DNA of 64,000 nt from Hydractinia symbiolongicarpus (lineage: Eukaryota; Cnidaria; Hydrozoa; Anthoathecata; Hydractiniidae), in contig NC_079888.1 of the NCBI RefSeq assembly GCF_029227915.1, positions 13,559,001 to 13,623,000 of the forward strand. The letters are read 5' to 3'. The notes beneath the pieces are model-generated. The model did not search any database, was not told the origin of the DNA, and saw only the letters and a program-made list of their open reading frames with translations. The position numbers and the translations under genes are program-made. Of this stretch, positions 21,483 through 58,936 are shown in pieces; within the stretch, counting starts at the first letter, position 1, and every line of letters starts with the position of its first letter.

Positions 21483-23409
21483 GTGTATAAGGCAAAATTA
21501 GAAGCAGAGAGAAAAAGATTTGAAGATGTGTTAAGAAGGGAAGACCAGCGCAATGAGGTATTCAAGATAGCAAAGCAAATGAAGAAGACTAATCAAGATG
21601 TTGTAGGTGAGAAGTGTATACGTAATGATGAAGGTGTTTTGGCCAGCACAGGGCAGGAGAAAAGGTCAGCTTTTAAGAATTATTATCAGAGGTTGCCTAA
21701 CACTGAGTTTGATAGGATAATTTGTCTGATGATGATGTTGTAGAAAGGACAGCTATGCAGATCAAGACAGAATGGGTAGTGGAGGCTATTAGGAAATTGA
21801 AGATTAAAAAGGCTACAGGAGTATCAGGTATTGTTGCAGAGATAGTAAAAGCATCTGGATATATTGGAGTTGAGCTTATTACAAGTCTTGCTAATCAGAT
21901 TATAAAGGATGATGATATTCCGAGTGAGTGGCAGTTAAGTGTAATATTGAATTGTTTCAACAGCAAGGGTGATGCATTAGAAAAAGGTAACTATAGAGGT
22001 TTGAAGTTGGTTGATCAAGTAATGAAAGTTATTGAAAGAGTGATTGATAAGTTACTTAGGGAAAGAATTGATATAGATAAGATGCAATTTGGTTTTGTTC
22101 CAGGGCGTGGCACTACAGATGCAATAATTTTACTCAAACACCTTCAGGAAAAGTATTTAGGAAAGAGAAAGAATCTCTTTTTTGTAGATTTAGAGAAAGC
22201 TTTTGATAGAGTGCCACGTAAAGTTATTTAGTGGGCTATGAGAAAATTAGGTGTGGATGACTGGCTAGTAACGATGGTACAGTCTATGTACAGCAATGCT
22301 AGAAGTTGTGTCAGGATTAACGATTCACTTAGTGATGAATTTAGTGTAAATGTTGGTGTACACCAGGGTTCTGTACTTAGTCCTTTGTTGTTTTTTCTAG
22401 TCTTAGAAGCGCTGTCGATGGAGTTCAGAACAGGTTGTTATTGTATGCAGATGATTTGGTTCTCAAAGCAGAGTCGATGGAAGCATTAGTTAAAAAGTTT
22501 GAGAAGTGGAAGAAAGGACTAGAAGAGAAAGGGCTAAGGGTGAACACAGCTAAGTCTAAAGTCATGATTAGTAGCATTGCAGCCAAGTGTGACCTTGTAG
22601 TTGGAAAGTGGCCTTGTGGAGTTTGCAGGAAAGGGGTTGGTAGTAACTCAATTTTTTGTCAGACTTGGAAGCATTGGGTACATAAGAAGTGCATTATTAT
22701 TGGAAGGTTAAGAGTTGATATTCAGTTTGTATGCAAGTGTTGCAAGGGTGAGATTATAGAGAATGAAGTATTTCCAGCTTCAATGATGTACAACAGTGGC
22801 TCGTTAGAGATAGTTGGGAACTTCTGTTACTTAGGTGATATGTTGGGCAGTGAAGGGGTGTTGAAAGAAGTGTTACTTGCAGGATAGGTTCTGCTTGGAA
22901 AAAGTTCAGAGTTACTTCCTTTGTTGACTAGCAGAGTCTTGTCAATTGAGTTAAAAGGTAGGTTGTATGAGGCCTGTGTAAGAAGTGTTATGTTGTACGG
23001 TAGTGAGACATGGGCAGTGAAGTAGGAAGATCTTGACCGTTTAGAAAGGAATGATATGAGAATGGTTAGGTGGATGCGTAACGCCAGTCTGAGAGACAGA
23101 AAGAGTTCAGATGAGCTAAGAAGCAGGCTAAGTATCCGTAGAATTAAAGATCTTATCCAGATAAGAAGACTGAATTGGCTGGGGCACTTGGAAAAAATGG
23201 AGGAGGATAATTGGGTAAGAAATTGTAGAGACTTGATAGTTCCTGGGGCAAAGCCCAGAGGCAGACGGAGGAAGACTTGGCAGGAGGTTATCAGGACAGA
23301 CTTGATACAGAGGAAGTTGGGTTTAGATCTAACACAGTCTAGATCAGATTGGAAGAGGGTCATTAATATACCCCGTCCAACCCATGCTAGCATGGAAAAC
23401 GGTCGTTAA
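21483..23409 (+). pseudogene. RTE reverse transcriptase with PHD-like finger (broken)
   Basis: Motifs in order: IRKLKIKKATGVSGIVAEIV, PSEWQLSVI, GNYRGLKLVDQVMKVIERV, QFGFVPGRGTTDAI, FFVDLEKAFDRVPR (motif A), VHQGSVLSPLLF, MLLYADDLVL (motif C, YADD), then CGVCRKGVGSNSIFC, WVHKKC and VCKCC (PHD-like Cys/His finger), and RIKDLIQIRRLNWLGHLEKM near the C-terminus. At least one TAG (22229-22231) and several frameshifts interrupt it. A 5' repeat of 'ttgaaagtacttggactact' at 21256 and 21293 is a local duplication. Confidence 0.9.
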
Positions 23410-25402: not shown

Positions 25403-26274
25403 ATGACCTCAACAAAAATCCACCTGTGTTAAAAGATGGGTCCAATTATATTGATTGGAAAAAGGAGTTAGAAGTGTGACAAGCACTGACAGATTTAGCT
25501 GATGAGAAGAAAGCTTTAGCTGTATTTGCTTCATTAGATGGTAAGGCTAAAAAGACTGCCTTACAACTTGACATTCGAGATTTAAAAACTGAAGATGGTA
25601 TTACAAAACTTACGGACAAATTGGACAAGATATTTCTTAAAGATGTAAAGCATCGTGCATATAAAGCATATGAAAAATTTGGGCGATTTAAAAGGAAGAA
25701 AGACATGTCGTTACAGGATTATACCATTGAGTTTGAAGACCTTTACTATAATTTGAAAAAGTATGATATTGATTTACCAGATGCTGTTACAGCTTATCGA
25801 TATTTAAATAGTGCTAACCTTTCTACGCAACAGAAAGAAATTGTTCGAGCAACAATTCCAGATTTAAAGTATAACTTGATGGTTGATCAAGTTAAGAAGG
25901 TATTTAATGAATCTTCAAATTCAAAAGAAGATGATGATGTGGCGGTTCAAATTAATGAGGTTTCGGGTGATAGTACTTCCAGCGAGACATTTCATGGTGC
26001 TTCACACAGCAAGGTTCCTCACTCACGGTATGCGGACAGAGGGTGGAACAGACGGGGTCAGGGATATCATGGGCCACGAGAAACACAAGAGTATAGGTTA
26101 AAGGATTATCGTAGAAGCAGTGGAAATCGAAATGACAGAGAGGAGAATAGAAGATCGGGTGATCGTCCAAGATGTTACATCTGTGGAAGTATTTACCATT
26201 TTGTTAGGGAGTGTCCAGATAAAGCTAAAAGTAAGAGTGATGAGATTAAACTTCAATTTTATACGAGGAAATAA
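25403..26274 (+). pseudogene. Copia Gag polyprotein (broken)
   Basis: Begins MTSTKI at 25403, shifts frame near 25420 into VLKDGSNYIDWKKELEV, then has TGA at 25477 where Trp is expected. From there it runs open to 26274: LDKIFLKDVKHRAYKAYEKF (retrotransposon gag helices), then a basic Arg-rich stretch and the zinc knuckle CYICGSIYHFVRECPD (C-x2-C-x4-H-x4-C). Gag and protease lie in different frames. Confidence 0.9.
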
Positions 26275-26303
26275 TGGAAATTCTCGTTGGTTAGACATTT
26301 ACC

Positions 26304-26575
26304 ATGGCAGTATTGGATTCTGGTTGCACTAAAACAGTTTGTGGGCAGAATTGGTTAAACTATTACGTGGAAAGTCTTTCAGTTGAGGATGCTTCATCAA
26401 CAAAGAAGAGCCATCATCAACAGTATTTAAATTCGGAGATGGTAAAGAAATCAAAGCATCAAAACGTGTCACCATCCCTGCTTGGCTTAGTGGAAAATAT
26501 GTTAGCATAACAACAGAAGTTATAGACAAGGACTTACCATTACTATTTAGTAAGCAAGCAATGAAGAATGCAAAA
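26304..26575 (+). pseudogene. Copia aspartic protease (frameshifted)
   Basis: AVLDSGCTKTVCG carries the D-S-G catalytic triad. A frame change near 26405 moves the reading to FKFGDGKEIKASKRVTIPAW and LPLLFSKQAMK, the C-terminal protease fold. Confidence 0.88.
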
Positions 26576-27569
26576 GTTTTTATTGATTATGAAAATGACA
26601 AGGTTGAAATTCTGGGACAAGAACACCAGATCCAATTTAGTTCCACCGGACATTATTGTATTTTCATTAACAAAGAGGGTAGCGAAATTGAAAAGACTTC
26701 TGCTCAAGTATGTCTGATAATGAATAATTTGGATGATACTCAAGAAAAAGAAAAAGTGGCCCTGAAATTGCATAAACAGTTTGCGCATCCATCAAAGGAC
26801 AAGCTTCAGCAGCTTTTGAGAAATGCTGATGTAACTGACCCAGATCTTTTAAAAATGATTGCTGAAGTTTCAGATAGTTGTGATACATGCATCAAGTACA
26901 GAAGAAATCAACCAAGACCAATTGTTTGGTTACCACATGCAACAGTATTTAATAAATGCGTTGGCATGGATTTGAAACAACGCATGGTGATAAAATTTGG
27001 TTGTTACATCTTGTTGATCACTTCACCAGATTTAGTGCATCCTGTGTTATTCAAGTAAAAGGAAAGAAATTATCATTAACTCAATTTTTAAGGTCTGGAT
27101 TTCCATATTTGGGTCTGCTAAAAAGTTTTTAGTGGATAATGGTGGGGAATTTGATAATGAGGATTACTGTAGCATGTGTGAGAATTTAAACATCAATATT
27201 GTTAAAACAGCTGCTGAGAGCCCATGGAGTAATGGACTTGTTGAGCGACATAATTCCACACTTGGCAATACAGTTTGTAAAATGATGGACAAGCTTAATT
27301 ATTCATTAGAAACAGCTGTGGCTTAGGCTGTTGCTGCAAAGAATTCCTTAAAAAACGTACATGGCCTTTCACCGAACCAACTAGTGTTTGGCAGCAATCC
27401 CAATTTTCCAGTTATAGAAATGAATGATCCACCCGCTCTAGAAGGAAGGACGAGTAGTCAAGTAGTTGCTGATAACTTGAACGCATTGCATGCTGCAAGA
27501 GAAGCCTTTATAAAATCTGAATCCTCTGAAAAGCTCAGAAGAGCCTTGAAACATAATGTAAGACCTTAA
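26561..27569 (+). pseudogene. Copia integrase (broken)
   Basis: HKQFAHPSKDKLQQLL...CDTCIKYRR is the H-H-C-C zinc domain (first His region changed to HKQFAH). The DDE residues are the Asp in GMDLK, the Asp in VDNGGEF and the Glu in GLVERHN, with a frame change between the first and second near 26985. In-frame TAG at 27324 and TAA at 27567 interrupt the core and C-terminal part. Confidence 0.9.
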
Positions 27570-27575
27570 ACAGGT

Positions 27576-29183
27576 GTGAAGTATGTAACAGGAGATAAAG
27601 TATATTATAAACAGAGATCTGATGATACTTGGAAGGGTCCTGCTACTGTGATAGGACAAGAAAGTCAGCAAGTTCTAGTGAAGCATGGATCAACATATGT
27701 TAGAATGCATCCATGCAGACTACGATTAAAAGAAGAAAAGTTAGAAGCACATGTAGAAGTGGAAATTGACCATGAAGACAAACAGGAAACTGGAAAGGAA
27801 ATATTGGAAGATGAGGAATTAAGTAGTGAAGCATCAATTACTAACAACGACGTTAATAATGATACAGGTATGGATAATTCATTTGAGAATAACAATTTAT
27901 TAAAGACAAATGTGAAAGCAAAGAATATTATGCCAAACATTAAAGATAAAGTGAAATACAAAACAAAAGTTGGTTGGAAAACAGGAACTGTGCACTCAAG
28001 AGCTGGGAAAGCAAGTGGAAAGTATAGGAATTGGCTGAATATTGTTGATGAAGTTGGGAATGTTGAGAATTTAGACTGGACAAAGGTTGAAGAGTGGGAT
28101 TTTGCTGAAAAGGTATCACAAGAGGCTTTGATATGCTTGAATAAAGCCAATGAAAATGAGATTAAGTCTGCCAAGGAGAAGGAATTGAACAACTGGATCG
28201 AAAATAAAGTTTTTGATGAAGTGGAAGATAAAAAGCAAAGTTGCATTAGCACCAGATGGATTCTGACAGAGAAGAATGTTGATGGACAAAGAATTGTGAA
28301 AGCTAGATTAGTGGCACGAGGTTTTGAGGAGTTTGAAAAACCAATTCAGACAGACTCTCCAACTTGCACAAAGAAATCGTTACGTTTAATGTTGTCAATT
28401 TTAGCTTGTAAAGAATGGGACTGTAACTCTATTGACATTAAAGCTGCCTTTTTGAAAGGAAACCCCATTGAAAGAGATATATACCTTAAACCACCTAAAG
28501 AGTTCCAGAAAGATGGATATGTCTGGAAATTGAATAACACAGTCTATGGCCTTGCAGATGCATCTAGAACATGGTATTTCAGAGTAAAGGAGGAACTGTT
28601 AAAGCTTGGTGTTGCAGTAAGTAAATTTGATGCAGGATTGTTCTACTATCGAAAAGATGGGCGTCTACATGAAATTATGACAACCCATGTAGATGATTTT
28701 TGTTGGGGTGGTACCAAACGTTTTTTAAACAATGTGATATTGCCATTGCATCAGACCTTTAAAATTGGGACAGTGCACAACATAGCGTTTCAATATTTGG
28801 GATTAGACTTAATGAAAAGAAAAGATAGCGTTATTGTATCACAAGATTCATATTTACAGAAGATTACAGTACTCCCCATTGATAAACACAAAGATAAAGA
28901 TGAATTGTTGAATAAGAAACAAAAATATGATTTGAGAGTATTGATTGGACAATTAAATTGGTTGGCTACACAGACACGTCCAGACATTCTTTTTGATTGC
29001 TGTGAACCAATGGGTAACATCAAAGATGCCACTGTTTCAGATATGCGAAGAGCCAACAAAGTGTTACAAAGAGCTAAGTGTGAACCTGTGGAATTGAAAT
29101 TCAAGGCAGTTGGAAACATAACTAAATCAATCACTATCCCTCATTTCGTGGCAGTCAAGAAAATTGAAAAGAGTAGTGAATAG
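27576..29183 (+). pseudogene. Copia integrase tail and reverse transcriptase
   Basis: A 535-codon open stretch. The N-terminal part has GDKVYYKQRSDDTWKGPATV, the Copia integrase C-terminal (GKGY-like) domain. Then an acidic spacer, and the RT from STRWILTEKNVDG through VKARLVARGFEE, SIDIKAAFLKG (motif A Asp), TVYGLADASRTWY, TTHVDDFCWG (motif C, HVDD in place of YVDD) and RVLIGQLNWLATQTRPDI. The frame is lost at VAVKKIEKSSE, where the start of RNase H should be. Confidence 0.92.
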
Positions 29184-29529
29184 TACCCTTTCTGCAGAGA
29201 CCATGCAATTAATCGATGCTGCTGGCAAAGGATATTGGATTCGATGTTTATTCCAAGAAATTTTCAATATTGCACCATCAATTCAATGTTTAACAGATAG
29301 TAAAACACTTTACGATGCTGTACATTCCACAAAACAAGTTTTGGACAATCGCTTAAGAGTAGATTTGGCTATTTTGAAAGAAATGATTCGAAATAAAGAA
29401 GTGAATCAAATAACATGGGTTTCAAAAGAACAGCAAATCGCTGATTGTCTTACCAAACGAGGAGCTAGTTGTAAGAATCTTCTTTTTACGTTGGCAACTG
29501 GTGTACTCAAACAAGAAAAAGAAAAATAG
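29164..29529 (+). pseudogene. Copia RNase H, N-terminal part deleted
   Basis: Reads VNSTLSAETMQLIDA (catalytic Glu), LTDSKTLYDAV (catalytic Asp), LDNRLRVDLAILKEMI and WVSKEQQIADCLTKRGAS (final Asp). The expected first strand with its leading catalytic Asp and the GGSQ-like loop is absent. The sequence passes from the end of the RT connection straight to the KK-I/R-VV-STL segment in another frame, so about 40 codons are deleted. Confidence 0.85.
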
Positions 29530-32841: not shown

Positions 32842-33318
32842 ACCTTAAAACAATGATGTTGGGTATAAAGTTAAAATGAAATTGTAAACTGACAAAATTT
32901 TAAGAATCACGTAGTTTTGGGCAGGCTTAGTTTAACCACACGCGCCGTATTTACACATTTGTTTAAAAGGATGATAAAAATCAGGTTAAAAAATCTTAAA
33001 TTTCGTCCCTTTTCGGACTGAAATGATTTGTTAGCATGTTCTTATTATTACCATTTTCCGAGTTATTGCGTACACGCTTTTTCTTTTATAACAATACGCC
33101 TTATAAGAATATCAAGCTGGGATTTCAGGTTAAAATCATCTTGATTAGAATTTGGATATTCTTATTATTAAAAAGCAACAATTATGAAATTTATACAGAA
33201 ACACTTTCTCTTATAAACAATTCCATATTCAAAAGATCGCCCAAATTACAAAAATTTAAAAAATTGGCTGCCAGTGTGACAAAACAAGTCATCATTGTCC
33301 ATAGGCTCCCTGAGCCAT
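32842..33318. other. AT-rich spacer, no gene
   Basis: A 100-codon plus-strand frame (33036-33338) has no motif and AT-driven composition. I regard it as chance. Confidence 0.4.
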
Positions 33319-33571
33319 GGGACGGCAGTAATATTTAAGGGACAGCAGTAATATTTAGGGGACAACAGTTATATTTAAGGGACAACAGTAATATTTAGGG
33401 GACAACAGTTATATTTAGGGGACAGCAGTAATATTTAGGGGACAGCAGTTATATTTAGGGGACAGCAGTTATATTTAGGGGACAGCAGTTATATTTAGGG
33501 GGCGGCAGTTATATTTAAGGGGAAGCAGTAATATTTAAGGGGAAGCAGTAATATTTAAGGGGCGGCTGTTA
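33319..33571. repeat. 20-bp minisatellite, about 12 copies
   Basis: Unit 'gggacagcagttatatttag' with variants at a few positions (cagca/caaca, gtaat/gttat, aagg/aggg). The period is close to 20 bp throughout. Confidence 0.95.
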
Positions 33572-34117
33572 CATTGGCATACGGCGTTCTCGTTGATATA
33601 TAATTTAAAACAAAATGCCATGGGAACGAGTTTGACAGTAAATCTTATTACAAATCAAATAAATACTTGGAAAATAAACACTTCTTCATTTGAATTTGCC
33701 TATGTATAAAATGGCTGAGAAGTTGGGTTGTGCAGCTAAACAGGGGCAAACTGCAACAAAATCAATTATTTAGAAGAGTTAGGGAAACTTGTTGAAATAT
33801 CTGAATACGGACATTGAAAGACAAGTCGTTTAATGGTATAATGTGTTATTTCAAAGAAAAAACGTTTGCTGAATGCCGACTCGTTTCGTACTCCTTTCTA
33901 TGAGGATTAACCTGAGAATTTTTTAATTTTGGAGTGAGTCTAACATTCTATGGTATCCATTGAGGTAAAGTGCGCTGTGTCTACTATTTTAGAATTAAAC
34001 ATGAGAAATAGGAAAATGTATGTTCTGGTACAGTCGACGACGACGACGACGACAATTTGGGAAATCCCTCAAATCCTGAATTCCCGGAAATCATCCCTCT
34101 CGGCAATTCCGAAAATC
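33572..34117. other. Left flank of the palindromic element
   Basis: AT-rich with a short (GAC)n run at 34034-34052. No gene. The last part (34080-34130) becomes richer in G and C and may belong to the element's left terminus. Confidence 0.4.
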
Positions 34118-34233
34118 TCGAGCATGCGCAATCGCGCAATATTGAGAATGGGGAAATTCGCAAATAAAGTGCTGACATCAACAGAATTTCGAACATGCGC
34201 ATTTGAGTAGGGGGAATTCCCATATCCAAAGCT

Positions 34234-34884
34234 ATGGCTGCTGGTTGGGGTTTTGTCTCTACAATAAAGAGGATACTGATGAAATTTGGAGACAAAACTG
34301 TTAAATCCGAAGACTTTTACACCAATTCGAAACCGCTAAAGATCGAAGAAGTGCAAGTCGAAAACATTGTGCTGAGCGACTGTATCCCAGCAAACAAAGG
34401 CAAGGATGAGCGCTTCGTGATTGGCTACCAGGATCAAGACGGCAACCTATCACAGTTACTGATACTGACCCCTGAAAAGATCCACTTCAAGGGTGCCTCT
34501 CAATATACCGAGGGTTCTGCGCTTACTATGTTGTTTGATCTAGCCAGCTATCTCGAGTGGTTAATAAAATACGAGGAGATTCTGACCAAGGGGAGTCAGT
34601 TGGAGGGGATTTGGTTCACCAACACCAGCGTAAAAAAAGGGCGGTACCTCAGCACCAAGCTGAAGGAGTGGGATGGCGAGGTCAGAACAAAATTCCACAA
34701 GAAAAAGATACCACAAAAAAGCTGCGAGTGTAAGGCTATCATCAAGCTAGCGAGCATCTACAACCAAGGGCGCAACTACTACGTACAGACCTACTTGGAA
34801 GAGTGCAAATACAAAGAGGTTGAAGGATACGGCACTTGCTACTTTAGGGACTCTGATGACGATGAGAGCTTCACTGTATTGTAA
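34234..34884 (+). CDS. Gene A, left copy (216 aa, unidentified)
   Basis: ATG at 34234 is the first in a fully open frame of 216 codons. The protein starts MAAGWGFVSTIKRILMKFGD and has ERFVIGYQDQDG, LLILTPEKIHF, YEEILTKGSQLEGIWF and near the end YYVQTYLEECKYK followed by an acidic DSDDDE tail. There is no signal peptide or membrane span. An acidic tail after a mixed alpha/beta body is compatible with a nucleic-acid-handling protein, such as a single-strand binding type, but that is a guess. The right copy differs by one residue (Ser here, Ile there). I associate this wording with repeated cnidarian proteins, from memory only. Confidence 0.85.
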   Translation: MAAGWGFVSTIKRILMKFGDKTVKSEDFYTNSKPLKIEEVQVENIVLSDCIPANKGKDERFVIGYQDQDGNLSQLLILTPEKIHFKGASQYTEGSALTMLFDLASYLEWLIKYEEILTKGSQLEGIWFTNTSVKKGRYLSTKLKEWDGEVRTKFHKKKIPQKSCECKAIIKLASIYNQGRNYYVQTYLEECKYKEVEGYGTCYFRDSDDDESFTVL

Positions 34885-34930
34885 GTGGCTTGTGAAGGTT
34901 CTATGGTTGTCTTCAGCCATAGAAACAAAC

Positions 34931-35209
34931 ATGAACGTTCCCGCACTGAAAAAAGAAGCAAAAGCACTACGCGTTCCTCGCTACTCAACTATGAATAGGG
35001 GTCCTCTTCTTGAGGCGATCCGCAAGGCCAAGTACAAATCCGCTTTAAAACAAACGGACGGTCCCTATTGCGAACCTTGTACTAGGCTTAGCTGGCACAA
35101 AAATCTCGAAGAATACTCGAGACAGCTCGCTGAAAAGCAGCGACGTGACGTACATGACTGTGGCCTTATCATCGACTATGATACTGGAGAAGTACTCGAG
35201 ATCATCTAG
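34931..35209 (+). CDS. Gene B, left copy (92 aa, SAP-like N-terminus)
   Basis: Start chosen at 34931 (MNVPALKKEAKALRVP), 46 bp after the gene A stop. The open frame extends further upstream but only through gene A in another frame. Residues 4-32 form LKKEAKALRVPRYSTMN..LLEAIRKAK, the helix-extension-helix pattern of SAP/Rho-N type nucleic-acid binding folds. Then a CEPC pair and a C-terminal DYDTGEVLEI. The function is unknown; DNA or RNA binding is an inference from the fold pattern. Confidence 0.75.
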   Translation: MNVPALKKEAKALRVPRYSTMNRGPLLEAIRKAKYKSALKQTDGPYCEPCTRLSWHKNLEEYSRQLAEKQRRDVHDCGLIIDYDTGEVLEII

Positions 35210-35232
35210 TATGTTGAAGAACACACTAGAAT

Positions 35233-35805
35233 CTATGAATACGAGGTGGGACTAAGTACCGCTGACATACTGCGCAGATTGAAGTTTTTTGAGCGCTTAT
35301 CCTTGGCCTCTTCACGCCCTTGCGCAACAAGCTGTTGTCGCTCCCGTTCGTTAATAGAATCCACGATTTTGCTTGTTCGTTGTCGGGCTTGCTCCTTCAG
35401 CACCAGGTATTTCTGCTTTTCCTGCACTATTAGGCTGAACTCGTAGTCGCTAATCACACCATTCTCCACGGCTCTCGAGATCAAGTCAACGATAGAGTTG
35501 AGCTTGGTCTCCGCCAATAGCCTTATCCCTTCGTGTTTCTTGGATTTTGCACCAGGCCTTCTCCCGGCATTACGTAGACCCGCTTGTCCCAGACCTACGG
35601 CGATAGTGATCCCACCCACGGCTATGTACAGGGGAGCTCCCAGGCCAGAAGCCAACGCCCCTATTCCAACACCGGACGTGATAATACTGATGCTCAATGC
35701 TGATGCTTCTTCGATTTTGCTGAGTCTGTAGACTTGTGAAGTATCCTCCGTACCCTCCGGAGATGCAGAAGGGAAGCTCGGGTAAAACTTAGCAATGTCA
35801 GTCAT
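35233..35805 (-). CDS. Gene C (190 aa, hydrophobic and helical, unidentified)
   Basis: Runs from the ATG at 35805 to 35233, converging on gene B with a gap of 23 bp. Residues about 35-75 are Gly/Ile/Ala-rich (ISIITSGVGIGALASGLGAP, AVGGITIAVGLG), enough for one or two membrane segments. Then a basic RRPGAKSKKHEG, and a long charged helical part (KLNSIVDLISRAV...ISDYEFSLIVQEKQKY) with a coiled-coil look. Small membrane proteins of this shape occur in virus-like elements. A KHE-KI..AESKLN-like segment is, from memory, common in cnidarian repeat proteins. The last 60 codons lie in the left arm, so a fragment is repeated in the right arm. Confidence 0.8.
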   Translation of the reverse strand: MTDIAKFYPSFPSASPEGTEDTSQVYRLSKIEEASALSISIITSGVGIGALASGLGAPLYIAVGGITIAVGLGQAGLRNAGRRPGAKSKKHEGIRLLAETKLNSIVDLISRAVENGVISDYEFSLIVQEKQKYLVLKEQARQRTSKIVDSINERERQQLVAQGREEAKDKRSKNFNLRSMSAVLSPTSYS

Positions 35806-35830
35806 ATTTATTCTATAAGCAGATGCATCG

Positions 35831-35965
35831 TTATTCCCACGAGCAAAACGTTCTTATCCTTGGATACTCATCCGTCAGCATAAACTCCAGCCTGTCTGTT
35901 GAGCCCTTCAGGGGAAGGTAAACAGGGTTATCGAAACTCCATGCACGCATGTGGGTGAGGTTCTG
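35831..35965 (-). pseudogene. Gene D, 3' end only (interior lost)
   Basis: Open frame from the arm/centre junction at 35965 to a stop at 35831: LTHMRAWSFDNPVYLPLKGS, then DRLEFMLTDEYPRIRTFCSWE. It lies 25 bp upstream of gene C in the same direction, an operon-like spacing. The start is missing, because the sequence passes directly into the right arm in an unrelated frame. It is the clearest sign that a longer interior existed. Confidence 0.55.
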
Positions 35966-36139
35966 CCTGGTGCTAAAGGAGCAAGCCCGACAACGAACAC
36001 GCAAAATCGTGGATTCTATTAACGAACGGGAGCGACAACAGCTTGTCGCACAAGGGCGTGAAGAGGCCAAGGATGAGCGCTCAAAAAACTTCGATCTGCG
36101 CAGTATGTCAGCGGTACTTAGTCCCACCTGCGTATTCAT
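35966..36139 (+). pseudogene. Gene C, 3' fragment in the right arm
   Basis: LVLKEQARQRTRKIVDSINE through ERQQLVAQGREEAK and LRSMSAVLSP match the gene C C-terminus with a few substitutions (Ser to Arg, Lys to Glu, Asn to Asp). The end differs by one inserted base. The upstream part of the gene is absent. Confidence 0.85.
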
Positions 36140-36164
36140 AGATTCTAGTGTGTTCTTCAACATA

Positions 36165-36443
36165 CTAGACGATCTCGAGTACTTCTCCAGTATTATAGTC
36201 GATGATAAGGCCACAGTCATGTACGTCACGTCGCTGCTTTTCAGCGAGCTGTCTCTAGTATTCTTCGAGATTTTTGTGCCAGCTAAGCCTAGTACAAGGT
36301 TCGCAATAGGGACCGTCCGTTTGTGTTGAAGCGGATTTGTACTTGGCCTTGCGGATCGCCTCAAGAAGAGGACCCCTATTCATAGTTGAGTAGCGAGGAA
36401 CGCGTAGTGCTTTTGCTTCTTTTTTCAGTGCGGGAACGTTCAT
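36165..36443 (-). pseudogene. Gene B, right copy (nonsense mutation)
   Basis: Same start MNVPALKKEAK at 36443, but a TAG at 36255-36257 replaces a Ser codon after LEEY, removing the last 29 residues. A two-residue change (ALKQ to ASTQ) precedes it. Sequence beyond the stop is still open and similar, so the mutation is young. Confidence 0.85.
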
Positions 36444-36489
36444 GTTTGTTTCTATGGCTGAAGACAACCATAGAACCTTCACAAGCCAC

Positions 36490-37140
36490 TTACAATACAG
36501 TGAAGATCTCATCGTCATCAGAGTCCCTAAAGTAGCAAGTGCCGTATCCTTCAACCTCTTTGTATTTGCACTCTTCCAAGTAGGTCTGTACGTAGTAGTT
36601 GCGCCCTTGGTTGTAGATGCTCGCTAGCTTGATGATAGCCTTACACTCGCAGCTTTTTTGTGGTATCTTTTTCTTGTGGAATTTTGTTCTGACCTCGCCA
36701 TCCCACTCCTTCAGCTTGGTGCTGAGGTACCGCCCTTTTTTTACGCTGGTGTTGGTGAACCAAATCCCCTCCAACTGACTCCCCTTGGTCAGAATCTCCT
36801 CGTATTTTATTAACCACTCGAGATAGCTGGCTAGATCAAACAACATAGTAAGCGCAGAACCCTCGGTATATTGAGAGGCACCCTTGAAGTGGATCTTTTC
36901 AGGGGTCAGTATCAGTAACTGTGATAGGTTGCCGTCTTGATCCTGGTAGCCAATCACGAAGCGCTCATCCTTGCCTTTGTTTGCTGGGATACAGTCGCTC
37001 AGCACAATGTTTTCGACTTGCACTTCTTCGATCTTTAGCGGTTTCGAATTGGTGTAAAAGTCTTCGGATTTAACAGTTTTGTCTCCAAATTTCATCAGTA
37101 TCCTCTTTATTGTAGAGACAAAACCCCAACCAGCAGCCAT
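36490..37140 (-). CDS. Gene A, right copy (216 aa)
   Basis: Identical to the left copy apart from one residue near the C-terminus (Ile for Ser in the acidic tail, one G/T change). Fully open over 651 bp. Near identity of two copies in an otherwise decayed neighbourhood means recent insertion or gene conversion between arms. Confidence 0.85.
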   Translation of the reverse strand: MAAGWGFVSTIKRILMKFGDKTVKSEDFYTNSKPLKIEEVQVENIVLSDCIPANKGKDERFVIGYQDQDGNLSQLLILTPEKIHFKGASQYTEGSALTMLFDLASYLEWLIKYEEILTKGSQLEGIWFTNTSVKKGRYLSTKLKEWDGEVRTKFHKKKIPQKSCECKAIIKLASIYNQGRNYYVQTYLEECKYKEVEGYGTCYFRDSDDDEIFTVL

Positions 37141-37243
37141 AGCTTTGGATATGGGAATTCCCCCTACTCAAATGCGCATGTTCGAAATTCTGTTGATGTC
37201 AGCATTATTTGCGAATTTCCCCATTCTCAATATAAATATATTC

Positions 37244-38380
37244 TCAATATTGGCGTATTGTGCGCAAGATTTATTTGGAGAGGAAAACGAAAAAAGAATA
37301 CAACCTGCTTGTAAATGACATGCGACTATTTGATAGAGAATTCTTTTTTCGTCAATTTAGAATGACAACCACCAAATTAGAAGAACTTCTTAGCTATGTT
37401 GCACCTGTTATAATGAAATCCTCGATGAGACGGGAAGCAATAACTCCAAGTGAGAGATTATGTGTTACCTTACGCTACTTAGTCATTGGAGATGCCCAAA
37501 GCACCATAGCTGATAGTTATAGAACGGGAAAAACATCAGTTTGTAGAATAATCAAAGAAACCTCAGATGCTTTATGGGACCAGCTTTTAAAAAAATGGAT
37601 TTCTTAAGGCCACTAAAACTGAAGAAGAATGAGTTGAAATCCAAGTGGAACTTTGGAAATTGCCTTGGAGCCATCGACGGAAAGCATGTTGTCATGCAAG
37701 CTCCCGCACGTTCAGGATTGTACTACTATAATTACAAAAAGACTCTAGTATTGTAATTAATGGGTGTAGTTAACTCGAATTATGAATTCATTCTTGTTGA
37801 CATCGGCGACGCTGGAAGACAAAGCGATAGTGGCGTATTCACGGCTTGTCATATTGACCGTGCACTAGAAAAGCAGAAACTTAATATTCTGAAGCTAAGA
37901 TCGTTAAAAGGTACATCAAAGGAATTCCCATTTGTATTTGTTGGGGACGGGGCATTCCCATTAAAGGAGTATTTGATTAAACTATCTATACAAATGAAAG
38001 AACAAATTGCTATTATCAAATATCAAGGGCTCGTCGACAAGTAGAAAACGTTTTTGGGATCTGTGCATCACGATTCCGGATTTTTAGACGCCCAATTATA
38101 GCAAATGTTGAGACTGTCACTTCTGTCACTAAAGCAATTGTGGCACCCCATAACTTTTTTATGTTTGGTAGAACCTACAGGCTATGAAGATGGTGAATGG
38201 AGAACAGAGGATATTGAGACAGAAGGTTTATTGCCACTTTCTAATGCTGGATCGCATAATTATTCAAAAGATGCTAAACAATTCCGTGATGACTTTAGAG
38301 ATTATTCTATTGGTGCAGGAACAGTGGCATGGCAGTGGGACTATATTTCAAAAACAACTGATTCATTTGATCAAAATTAA
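37244..38380 (+). pseudogene. PIF/Harbinger (HARBI1-like) transposase, frameshifted
   Basis: Reads in pieces: RLFDREFFFRQFRMTT, ITPSERLCVTLRYLVIGDAQ, SYRTGKTSVCRIIKE, then in another frame CLGAIDGKHVVMQAP (first catalytic Asp), VDIGDAGRQSDSGVF (second Asp region), FVFVGDGAFPL, RQVENVFGICASRFRIFRRP (catalytic Glu) and the C-terminal YEDGEWRTEDIE and DDFRDY motifs. Order and spacing are those of HARBI1-type DDE transposases. Stops near 37754 and 38042 and frame changes near 37595 and 38170 kill it. The N-terminus abuts the right arm of the palindrome. Confidence 0.92.
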
Positions 38381-38863: not shown

Positions 38864-39229
38864 CTCGTTTCTGTGTCAAAGACCCACATCTGCCGTTATG
38901 ATTTCAATGTTTTGAATTCTTGATAAATGACGGCTTTTGATTGGTTAAATTATTTTTTATTCGCTTGGTAGTTCAAAAAGTTTGAACTTCTGATGACCAT
39001 TCGCGCGACCAACAGAATGTTGCGTAAATGTTCAAAAATAGATTTTGCGCATGCTCAGATATCTATTTGCTAGAGTCGCGCGACTAAAACGAATGAGTGG
39101 AAACCGGCCTTTAGATTCTTTTTTTTTTTCATGGCAGTTCTAGGCCACCATATACTAGAGTCAACCTATGTGGGCCTGGCCTATTTTTAGTCAGAAAGTT
39201 TTGAACAAACCTGTCAAAATAGTTTCGTT

Positions 39230-42944: not shown

Positions 42945-45900
42945 CTGCAAAGGAGAAGAAAGAGAAAAGTGTAGAGGGAAGGTAGGTAGTCGGTTGAGAT
43001 AAGCGCGGGTTGCTGTTTGAGATGAGCGCGGGTTGCTGTTTGAGATGAGCGCGGGTTGCTGTTTGAGATGAGCGCGGGTTGTCGTGAAGGGTGAGGACGC
43101 GTTGTTGTACTGGGTAAACGAGGGTTGTGTGCGATGGTTGTGCGCGAGGGTTGCGTGTGAGACAAGCGCGGGTTTTCGTAAGGGTGAGGACGCCTTGATG
43201 TGCTGGGTAAATGAGGGTTGTGAGCGAGGGTTGCGTGTGAGATGAGCGTGGGTTGTTGCGCGATGTGCGCATTGGTTATTTTGCGGGATAATTGTGGGTT
43301 GTTATGCGGGTTGCGCGAGGGTTGGTATGCAAGTACTTGTGGATTGTTAGGCGGGTATGGGTGTGTTGCTAAAAAGCGCTAAAGCATAACATTACACTGC
43401 TGCGTGTTTATGAAATGACATCAATCTTTATGAGGAAACTGTCATTTGTAACCCTGACAGTTTGTAGACACAAAAACAACTTTTGCATATAACGTAAATA
43501 CCGTATGGACACACAGAAATAGAACAGTACCTTCTCGAGCTTGGAAAGTTGCCACGTTGTCAGAAATATCTGCGCCGCTTATTTCTCTCCAGTTTTTGTA
43601 GTCGGTGGAGTGATAGATTTCCGCGTCATCCGACTCCACTTTCATTTTTATCGTTACCTCTGCGCCGTTGGCAAGCTTTTCGAACGGATACACCACAAAG
43701 TATTTGCTTTCGTACGAATCTCCTTTGTTTAACTCTCCACCTTGCTGCTTAACAACTTCTTCTCCAGCACTCTCGTCCCATTGCTCTACCCGAATTTGTT
43801 TGCCATCTTGAACTGTCGCTGGCTTTATCCAAACGCCTTCACTAAACAACAAATAATACAAGAGATAAATATGCGAAAAACAAGAGGCAGAAACAAACGA
43901 ATAAATTACGTTTCCTACTTATCGCTAAGCTGAACGGCTCCACCACTATAGCCAACTTGCTGTTCCGCGCTTTTAGCCTCGCTCACTACAATTTTTCCTT
44001 TCTGACCGCGATTGGAGAAGTTGTTGTTTCGAGTGCACATGTAATGGTAGTCACCAGCTCTCGTGATTTTGCGTGGTGGTAAATCGAAATATGTGCCAGC
44101 ATCATCTAGTTCAGATAATTCACCACGTAGCTGACCTATACATCATTATAAAAAGTGCGTTAGAGAAATTAAAAAACATTGGGATGTATATCATTTGTTA
44201 AATTTTTTTAAAAAAACCGAGGAAACAAAACGATAACAAAGCGTACACAGTATACTCTCCAATTAGCGGACACCATCGGTGTATGACCAAAGTGTCCGCC
44301 AATTATAAGTGTCCGCCTTTTGGAAAGTGTTAAATTTAAAGCTAAAAATTAGAAAATAAAGCTGATTTTTGTATCACAAAGGGAAAATAACAAATGATAA
44401 TATAATGTTAACATAATGATAACGAACCAATCTTTAAAGTCAAACAAATTTTAACAAATGATAAATGATTAAAGATTTTATTTTTAAATTTTATTTTCTG
44501 CTACTTATCTTGACGATCTCTAGTCTCTCCTTAATGGAGGAAAGAGTTTCTCTTTCCTCTCTATTGAGATTGTTTAGTTCTATAAGCTCGTCAAGCATTG
44601 CTAGCGTTGTCGCAATAGAAATTTCTTTTTTTTCAATCACAGAATTATCACCATCTTCTTCACCGTCATCAGATAAAACCTCTTCTATATTTCACATAAT
44701 ATTTCAGTAATATGCTTAATGTTTTAAAAGATTTCAAACACTGCCATTACGGTTAAAGTCATTGGGAAGCGATTGAATCGTGGAGGTGGATGGTGTGGAG
44801 TTTTCTGTTATTTATCACTTTCATGGCCATGAAAAGCTGATAAAGTGGTTAATAAAGAAAATTGACAAGATTAAAAGCAATCTGGACAGAAAAGAAAAAT
44901 GTTTGAAATAAATGTTAGAAAAACTATCCTTTTTTATATTTTTCTTTGTTCGCTTTTGATTTTTATGGACTGTCCGCTAATTGGAAAGAAAAAAGGCATA
45001 TTTGCTCTTTGGTGCAAAAAATATTTTCCGCTAATTAAAGTATCCGCTAATTAGGTGTCCGCTTTTCTGTCTACGTGTCTGCCTTTCTCCTTGATTGGAG
45101 AAAATACTGTATACGTAAACTAGATCGCGAAATACTTTTAAGTGGAGTAAAAAGCACTGGGAAGGAGTTTGTCGACAATTCGTGCGTTCCTGCAAGGAAA
45201 ACATCAAGAGTTCTAGTGACGAACTTTTGATTATATCAACCCACGTGTTTGCGCATAGGCGGGTGAGTAATTTTGCTAAAACTTATTTTAGTTTTTTACT
45301 GCAACTATGTGTAGACTAAAAATAAAATTAAAAAAGCTTCGTTAATAAATAAATTATACTTTGACAAATGTTCTTATTCATATTATGCTCGGGTTTAGCA
45401 TGATTTGCTTGTACAGTATATCAAATTTCATTTCTATCACTTGATCATATTATAAGAAACGAATATTGGAATGTGACGCATCTGGGTTGTTCGTTTGTAA
45501 GAAATTCCCTACACATCTAAAAAATTTTTTACGGGAAATTCCTTTCATAAAAATATAGATAAATATGATACATGAGAGATAGTGACGTCAAAAATGTCCA
45601 AAGGAAACAAAGATGTCAGAACTTACGTCTCCTTACAAATACCAGCCCTGCACTTATACATTGGCTATTTGGCCGTACCGTATTTACTCTAACGGGCACC
45701 TCCCTGGAATAAGTGCTTCATTTAATAGAAAATACTTTATTAGTTTCCCTATTAAATTGTACTCGAAGGGAAACATAACGTATAAAAAGAATTTTGTTTC
45801 GCAGAATTATTCCTATTTGGTACAAAGAATTTGAAATTGTTCATGCATCACATCAAACACACTCTTAACATGTGTTGCAAATTTAACAAACATAACACGC

Positions 45901-58186: not shown

Positions 58187-58936
58187 TATTTCATAACCAT
58201 TAATGAAAAAAAGGTTTTAGAGTCCAGGGGTCTTTAACAAAAACAAGGCTTAGGTGGAAACCATGTAACTTTCTTTATATTTCGAACGTACACAGACATT
58301 TGATCCACAACTCGTTCAAAAATAAACAATACAATACAACTTTTAAAAAAAGAATATTTCCAAAACAGTTTTAAAATTCAATTCTTTGTCGTTTCGCTGG
58401 TGGAGTGTTCGTATTAAAATTAAATGTACAATTGTTAAAATTTCCTCCGGAAAAAAATGAAGAGAGGGTTAAAGACTGCGTGGAACTGGAAGTATTAAGA
58501 GCTGTCGATTGGTTATGTACGTCAAGTTGGTTATTATTTGAGCTCAAGATGTTTGACATTTTGTAACGGTGAGTGGTACTAGCTGATTTGTAATTTCTTA
58601 ACGAATCAATATTTTTGTGACCACTGTGATGGGCTACATAACCTTCGGGGACATTTGCATTCAAAAGCTTTCCAATCGATGTTTTTCTAACGGAATGATT
58701 TGCCACTTTTCTGCCTGTAAGCCCGTGTTTTTTGGAACTTAATAATTCTCCAATTTTATTTTTCCCGAAGGGGAGTTTTCAAATACCAAATACTTTCTTG
58801 TTTTGTTTTTGTTTTGATGTCGGTTAATACGGCGTCATATAGACTGGTCACGTGAAAAAAAAAACCAATCAAATTTTCCGAGAACGTTCGAATAAACGTA
58901 AACATTCGAAAATACTCAACAGTGGGGTAATAATAT
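58187..58936 (-). mobile_element. Crypton-related segment between inverted repeats
   Basis: TTATTACCCCAC at 58188-58199 is repeated inverted at about 58922-58935 (GTGGGGTAATAA). Between them lies the tail of a tyrosine recombinase. This may be a shortened Crypton-like element. Confidence 0.55.
58371..58790 (-). pseudogene. Crypton-type tyrosine recombinase, C-terminal part
   Basis: Minus strand: IGELLSSKKHGLTGRKVANH, then SVRKTSIGKLLNANVP and HHSGHKNIDSLRNYKSAS, then a Ser/Thr/Asn-rich tail ending PPAKRQRIEF. H-S-V-R, the later H-x-x and the Y of NYKSA correspond to the His-Arg-His-Tyr catalytic residues of eukaryotic Crypton/DUF3504 recombinases. The N-terminal half and first Arg are absent. 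Confidence 0.8.

Follow-up and report, generated by a model that had tools for sequence, protein, structure and literature searches.

A gene-bearing palindrome in Hydractinia symbiolongicarpus that probably arose by fold-back of one end of a Polinton-type element

We analysed a 64,000-nt stretch of the 480.9-Mb Hydractinia symbiolongicarpus assembly (C14:13559001-13623000; hereafter the window, to whose positions all coordinates without a locus label refer), which contains a palindrome carrying genes that we call A, B, C and D. Very probably, the palindrome is one end of a Polinton-type element (the A-end, with the terminus, genes A to C and the 3' part of D) that a single inverted template switch has duplicated. 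An earlier note, made from the letters of the window, had described an inverted gene-bearing palindrome at this place and had taken it for the remnant of a long virus-like DNA element. The first description was confirmed by an arm-against-arm alignment in which 1255 of 1270 columns were identical (12 substitutions, one 2-nt gap and one 1-nt gap), and the second is borne out by parents that carry an rve integrase together with weaker PolB-like and capsid-like matches. The result assigns four unnamed proteins to a Polinton-type element that occurs in multiple copies in a model cnidarian, and would show a route from an element end to a palindrome that carries genes and decays as a single unit. 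Labels such as L034 denote pieces from other genome loci, and P-numbers denote related proteins.

The two arms are separated by a spacer of ~559 nt (Table 1). The palindrome had been placed at 34118-37268; exact arm similarity stops at 34139 and 37233, and the element continues to 34004, on the left only. The intergenic gaps, at 46, 23 and 25 bp, were as claimed. Each arm was said to bear the same two inward-facing genes, which holds for A, open in both arms, but not fully for B, whose right copy carries a nonsense codon. Similarly, the palindrome is richer in G+C (45-49%) than most of the DNA around it (mostly 23-39%), but not than all of it as had been stated, because the kilobase 43001-44000 is equally rich (46.5%); the reading frames of this second G+C-rich kilobase gave no convincing Pfam match. 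Third-position G+C was 0.59 in A, 0.47 in B and 0.54 in C, whereas three reading frames of transposons in the window had 0.28-0.32. We scanned the window and 208 kb of other loci (overlapping pieces counted twice, and mostly DNA of this element family) for inverted repeats of at least 300 bp with 90% identity and a spacer below 3 kb. The scan returned one further inverted repeat besides that of the window, a count that gives no genomic background rate. Since only a single other inverted repeat was present in all of this sequence, the window palindrome is not a product of chance.

Longer copies of the element in the genome

A search of the genome with the arm gave 45 rows, which came to 38 other places once five fragment rows had been merged and the two window arms set aside. 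Because 40 of the 562 first-look candidates were scored, this number is a lower bound: the arm is present at at least 38 other places, 74-88% identical. Five of these copies were followed inward for ~16-17 kb (two adjacent 9-kb pieces each). All five carry A-B-C-D once, with a longer element beyond, except that L035 has an additional 59-bp piece of A. The longer parent that the earlier note had proposed thus exists in the same genome, and the outcome that it had named as contrary to its idea, short palindromes with no longer parent, is not the case.

If A and B formed part of long terminal inverted repeats, the middle of the element having been lost, as was first supposed, then inward-facing pairs of arms should recur among the other copies. 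A palindrome with inward genes agrees with this explanation, as does the fact that the inner part of the arms is less alike than the outer. However, no inward-facing partner was found within 30 kb among the at least 38 other places (table read by eye), the five followed copies contain no inverted A or B, and the probable far end of the element matches the terminal sequence but neither A nor B. The placement of A and B inside terminal inverted repeats was therefore abandoned, and we regard a lost middle as very improbable. One outward-facing arm pair, ~12 kb apart, was seen on C10.

The outer end of the element is marked by a 23-base terminus motif, which the window contains at 34004 with 1 mismatch. 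With at most 2 mismatches the motif occurs in 8 of 39 other loci scanned, and it had 0 matches in 217 kb of shuffled sequence. The terminal sequence 34004-34236 was matched in 19 loci; eight of the alignments start at 33999-34008 (L007, L013, L018, L019, L021, L024, L028 and L030) and the others start further in. The motif lies outside A in seven other loci and occurs once in opposite orientation in L013. An inverted partner of the terminus was found only at L034:3848-4011, 65% identical over 183 columns with the outermost bases absent; judged by its match to the terminal sequence, this is the probable far end. No copy with both termini was found. The reversed terminus of L013 (690-893) stands upstream of gene A and is perhaps a nested or adjacent copy. 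Flank coverage is low but parallel in L006, L008 and L010, which may reflect duplication of a locus instead of new insertion.

Twenty-nine reading frames of parent copies were scanned with Pfam, and those not named here gave no clear match. The rve integrase (PF00665) was found above cut-off in L031 (E value 5.7e-10) and L035 (4.6e-11), and DUF4116 repeats in L037 and in a sixth copy, L018 (E 7.3e-11, above cut-off). The DUF4116 open reading frames (ORFs; L018:1127-1411 and L037:40-429) lie in extra sequence between the terminus and A, which the window copy does not have. The letters YMDTDS in ORFs of L040 are presumably a PolB-like motif, in an ORF with no Pfam match of its own, and L040:6394-6735 resembled an ATPase by eye, without a Pfam match of that kind. 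From these matches the parent family classes as Polinton-type, with several hallmarks unproved. The terminus of L024, at 3737, abuts DNA reading MHQFDLLYMPHD, close to the start of the L031 integrase ORF, MHHFDLLYMPHD; here one element has probably inserted into the integrase gene of another.

Table 1. Positions of the features of the palindrome, its right flank and the related palindrome on C9.
Feature	Position	Strand	Remarks
Element terminal sequence (A-end)	34004-34138	+	left side only; terminus motif at 34004
kappaB-like site GGGAAATCCC upstream of gene A	34059-34068		GGGAAATYCC shared by 4 of 8 termini of relatives
Left arm of palindrome	34139-35407	+	inverted-arm alignment
kappaB-like site upstream of gene A	34211-34221		mirrored at 37153-37163
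Gene A, left copy	34234-34884	+	216 codons, open; start common to relatives at 34279
Gene B, left copy	34931-35209	+	92 codons, open; N-terminus SAP/Rho_N-like
Gene C, left	35233-35805	-	only complete copy; ~31 codons of relatives absent; N-terminal motifs weakened (FYPSF, PSAS)
Gene D, 3' end fragment	35831-35952	-	DNA similarity to parents
Central junction	35953-35965		~13 nt matching neither D nor C of parents
Right arm of palindrome	35966-37233	-	ends 135 bp before mirror of terminus
Gene C, 3' part in right arm	35966-36140	+	arm alignment
Gene B, right copy	36165-36443	-	interrupted by nonsense codon
Gene A, right copy	36490-37140	-	216 codons, open; one residue differs from left copy
Right junction	37234-37250		11-nt stretch ATTCTCAATAT present twice around it
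Harbinger-type transposase gene (flank, outside element)	37251-38380	+	frame-broken, 5' side missing
C9 fold-back palindrome	L041:519-3000 and L040:1-7471 (C9:12701118-12711070)		inverted-repeat scan; larger than that of the window

Breakpoints, arm divergence and a second fold-back

The centre of the palindrome records where the parent sequence was broken. In four copies, similarity to D of the parents extends as far as 35943-35952, and in L035 it stops at 35845; inverted similarity to C begins at 35966-35968 in five of five copies. In the C5 copy these two breakpoints lie 635 bp apart. The D and C breakpoints, the ~13-nt unmatched centre and the 635-bp distance together have the geometry of one inverted template switch, and it is from this geometry that we infer a single switch as the cause. 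Copying would have run inward from the terminus through A, B and C into D, switched to the opposite strand ~635 bp back, within C, and then continued outward again through B and A. The right terminus would have been lost in a rearrangement with the neighbouring Harbinger copy.

The 12 substitutions between the arms (8 transitions and 4 transversions) were polarised with up to 28 genome copies; the derived state proved to be in the left arm at six sites and in the right arm at the other six. Nine are non-synonymous, one of them nonsense, and three are synonymous, where 28% synonymous changes are expected under neutrality. Both the even split and the predominance of non-synonymous changes indicate that the arms began alike and decayed without visible selection; the decay is symmetrical and neutral. 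Of the 1269 bp, only the inner 540 contain any of the 12 substitutions (p = 3.5e-5); the outer 729 bp have none. This confinement suggests that the outer part was homogenised, probably by gene conversion that kept it alike.

The second inverted repeat of the scan lies on C9, with L041:519-3000 and L040:1-1311 inverted against L040:1792-7471. Its arms differ by 8 substitutions over 1311 aligned columns, 7 over 615 and 32 over 1872, and the right arm alone carries a 1.9-kb insertion that is reverse-transcriptase-like by eye. The C9 palindrome adjoins the C9 copy of the element, its core is ~79% like L034:6749-7999, next to the PolB-like ORF, and its outer end lies ~0.4 kb short of a Bro-N-like ORF, far from the A-end. 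It is a second fold-back of the same element family. Since nearly all DNA examined outside the window belongs to this family, two fold-backs in one family weigh little.

Near-identical long palindromes can come from amplification or mis-assembly, as stated in a portion of PMC6218980, and the earlier note had itself named an assembly fold-back of one unit as something that would undo its interpretation. If the window palindrome were such an artefact, then the arms should not have diverged as two sequences. The 12 substitutions, with their mixture of transitions and transversions, their inner clustering and their 6:6 division by arm, argue against this, as does the asymmetric loop, in which only one side has D. 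Likewise, an insertion confined to one arm means that the C9 palindrome is no assembly artefact. We rejected this explanation, which we consider scarcely credible.

Several observations count against a Polinton-type end duplicated by a single switch. The PolB-like match (PF03175, E 1e-4, one ORF of L034), Capsid_N (PF16903, E 8.9e-4 in L035 and 0.01 in L037) and a Bro-N-like piece (best E 2.9e-5) all fell below the cut-off, and the scan of 29 ORFs brought up no recognisable protease, penton or packaging ATPase. The capsid-like ORF (L037 piece) had no relevant match among solved structures, at E 0.21 or worse. The structure model of A was poor (mean predicted local distance difference test score, pLDDT, of 53) and was not used. 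The right end of the palindrome is not a terminus, no copy with the same junction was seen, so that the single-switch path is read from geometry, and the polarisation of one arm substitution, at 35204, rests on 14 copies versus 12.

The template switch could have occurred in two settings, which share between them the probability that we give to the fold-back as a whole. In the first, copy-back during viral replication would have produced a defective snap-back linear molecule that was integrated and later lost its right terminus. Left-end palindromic defective adenovirus DNA, an inverted duplication of one genome end around a short unique centre, provides a precedent, from which the window differs in being a chromosomal remnant only, with one terminus missing; none of the titles listed by a literature search dealt with such adenovirus DNA. 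The intact left terminus is consistent with copy-back. A is open in both arms and B in the left, so no lesion common to the arms speaks for decay before duplication, and the C9 fold-back, if it is part of the adjoining C9 copy, also runs inward from the A-end before turning. However, the right arm falls 135 bp short of the terminus, the C9 palindrome has its outer end near the Bro-like ORF and far from the A-end, and no second terminus or target-site duplication was seen. We give copy-back somewhat less than an even chance. In the second, an integrated copy would have been broken and repaired by inverted copying that ended in neighbouring Harbinger DNA. The right end does look like a rearrangement, with its repeated 11-mer, a Harbinger copy that has no 5' side and no left Harbinger end in the window, and the arms of the C9 palindrome are truncated. 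Fold-back inverted duplications of chromosomes are described in sections of PMC3907307 and PMC10622511. Against chromosomal fold-back stand the missing common lesion and, with little weight for the reason given above, the occurrence of two fold-backs in the same family. To this setting we assign a chance not far short of even.

Genes A, B and D

Before the fold-back, the lineages of A and B were under purifying selection: the ratio of non-synonymous to synonymous substitution rates (dN/dS) against 28 genome copies was 0.14-0.34 for A and 0.19-0.53 for B. Besides the window, A is free of frameshift and stop in one of the 28 copies (L003, aligned part). Gene A has three metagenome relatives (P0002-P0004) and no match among solved structures. 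No relative turned up in viral_contigs, which was scanned with A, with C, with alignments of the two and with P0017. The only PHROGs families found with A, B, P0005, P0006 and P0002 were weak (best E 0.0092) and of unknown function. The N-terminus of B has a Rho_N-like match (PF07498, E 1.2e-4, below the Pfam cut-off), and from this SAP/Rho_N-like start protein B of the parent would be nucleic-acid-binding; a similar role for protein A is only a guess. The place matching D in a relative is a 223-codon ORF at L037:2248-2919. For this 223-residue protein Pfam gave no match and the PDB none better than E 1.4, and the window fragment of D had no match among solved structures.

Gene C and its late-domain-like motifs

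The left copy of C is short by about 80-90 bp net relative to L031, L033 and L035, and by ~31 codons relative to P0001. Its family comprises 18 matching proteins, two of them from H. symbiolongicarpus. Together with window C this makes 19 sequences, from which P0014, P0018, P0019 and P0020 were set aside for want of an N-terminus. A YPxnL-like motif is present in all 15 sequences that have an N-terminus, 13 of them in the strict LYP form, and PSAP is present in 13 of the 15; several of these sequences are closely related, so the 15 cannot all count as independent. When the first 40 residues were shuffled 20,000 times, the two motifs appeared together in 0 to 3 of the shuffles. Among genome loci, the start of C was matched in 18 of 28, with PSAP in 16 and LYPxL in 15 of the 18 (printed rows read by eye). 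In P0017 the order of the two motifs is reversed. Downstream of them follow a hydrophobic stretch and then a charged part. Pfam gave scattered weak matches on the 18 family members (best E 3e-4, in one), none common to more than five, and the C alignment gave nine weak matches among solved structures, the best (E 0.0091) to the hypothetical protein 2h5n.

PTAP- and YPDL-type late domains bind ESCRT-I (ESCRT, endosomal sorting complex required for transport) and ALIX, according to an excerpt of PMC2958808. The paired LYPxL and PSAP motifs at the start of the C family look like such late domains, as in budding viruses. Most likely, protein C of the parent was a membrane-hairpin and coiled-coil virion or exit protein that would recruit ESCRT through LYPxL and PSAP. 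The pairing makes the entry of particles into cells, or their exit, testable by simple binding assays. A literature search found no paper joining Polintons with late domains and ESCRT.

Upstream of A, the terminal region carries two kappaB-like sites (Table 1). Of the four relative termini without a full GGGAAATYCC, three were printed only partway into it and one has no such motif. Two kappaB-like sites were reached in 0 of 2000 shuffles of 34020-34233, a stretch picked after the sites had been seen, and in 5 of 2000 shuffles of 34020-35407.

Comparison with known systems

Polintons, in the part of PMC4028283 that describes them, are 15-20 kb long and encode pPolB, an RVE integrase, ATPase, protease, major capsid protein (MCP) and penton. 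The Hydractinia copies resemble Polintons/Mavericks in being long elements with an rve integrase, PolB-like and capsid-like matches and genes on both strands, and in having a shared terminus and one probable inverted far end. They differ in that protease, penton and ATPase were not recognised and in the DUF4116 and Bro-N-like genes of several copies; the window copy differs further in being one end only, folded back. Polintons make a 6-bp target-site duplication. No paper joining Polintons with Hydractinia was found in the literature search.

Adintoviruses are defined by a PolB with an OTU domain, a hexon detectable by BLASTp and a chromodomain integrase, in the passages available of PMC11071296. 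Like these and other meldviruses, the present family has an animal host, and protein C is a candidate for the membrane-active Macc class outlined in the same passages; unlike them, its capsid signal is a weak Capsid_N. Adenovirus protein VI offers a functional analogy to C, not a family tie: it is a capsid-associated, membrane-acting protein of a non-enveloped virus with a late-domain-type motif (extracts of PMC2841620 and PMC11071296). Its motif, however, is PPxY, used during entry (extract of PMC2841620), whereas C has LYPxL and PSAP.

The window locus is real and mildly unusual, and the family adds a member to a known kind. Its notable variant is the fold-back, of which two cases were seen. 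If viral replication gave rise to the fold-backs, the genome would hold in them fossils of defective viral genomes and a direct record of how element DNA was copied. A bolder version, which we consider unlikely, is that linear virus-like elements of Hydractinia repeatedly make A-end copy-back defective genomes that enter the germ line. The window and C9 palindromes would then be two fossil defective-interfering genomes of a Polinton-type virus that had a membrane protein with paired ALIX/TSG101 motifs and an end with NF-kappaB-like sites.

Flanking DNA and other elements in the window

The Harbinger-type gene on the right has two matches that stay below cut-off, to PF13613 (E 9.2e-4) and PF13359 (E 2.2e-4). 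A clean insertion of the element into this gene was rejected: the presumed Harbinger terminus occurs once in the window (39095-39109), on the right side only, and the left flank and element end are no more like Harbinger than shuffled controls. The terminal sequence 34004-34138 was not found on the right side of the window. To the left of the element lies a tandem array with a 20-bp unit (33279-33598). Rfam and tRNA scans were empty. On the minus strand, 58374-58706 has a weak Phage_integrase match (PF00589, E 0.0037, below cut-off) and is perhaps a tyrosine-recombinase element. Reverse-transcriptase elements, LINE-like and copia-like (RVT_1, RVT_2), lie at 21722-23409 and 25621-29529.

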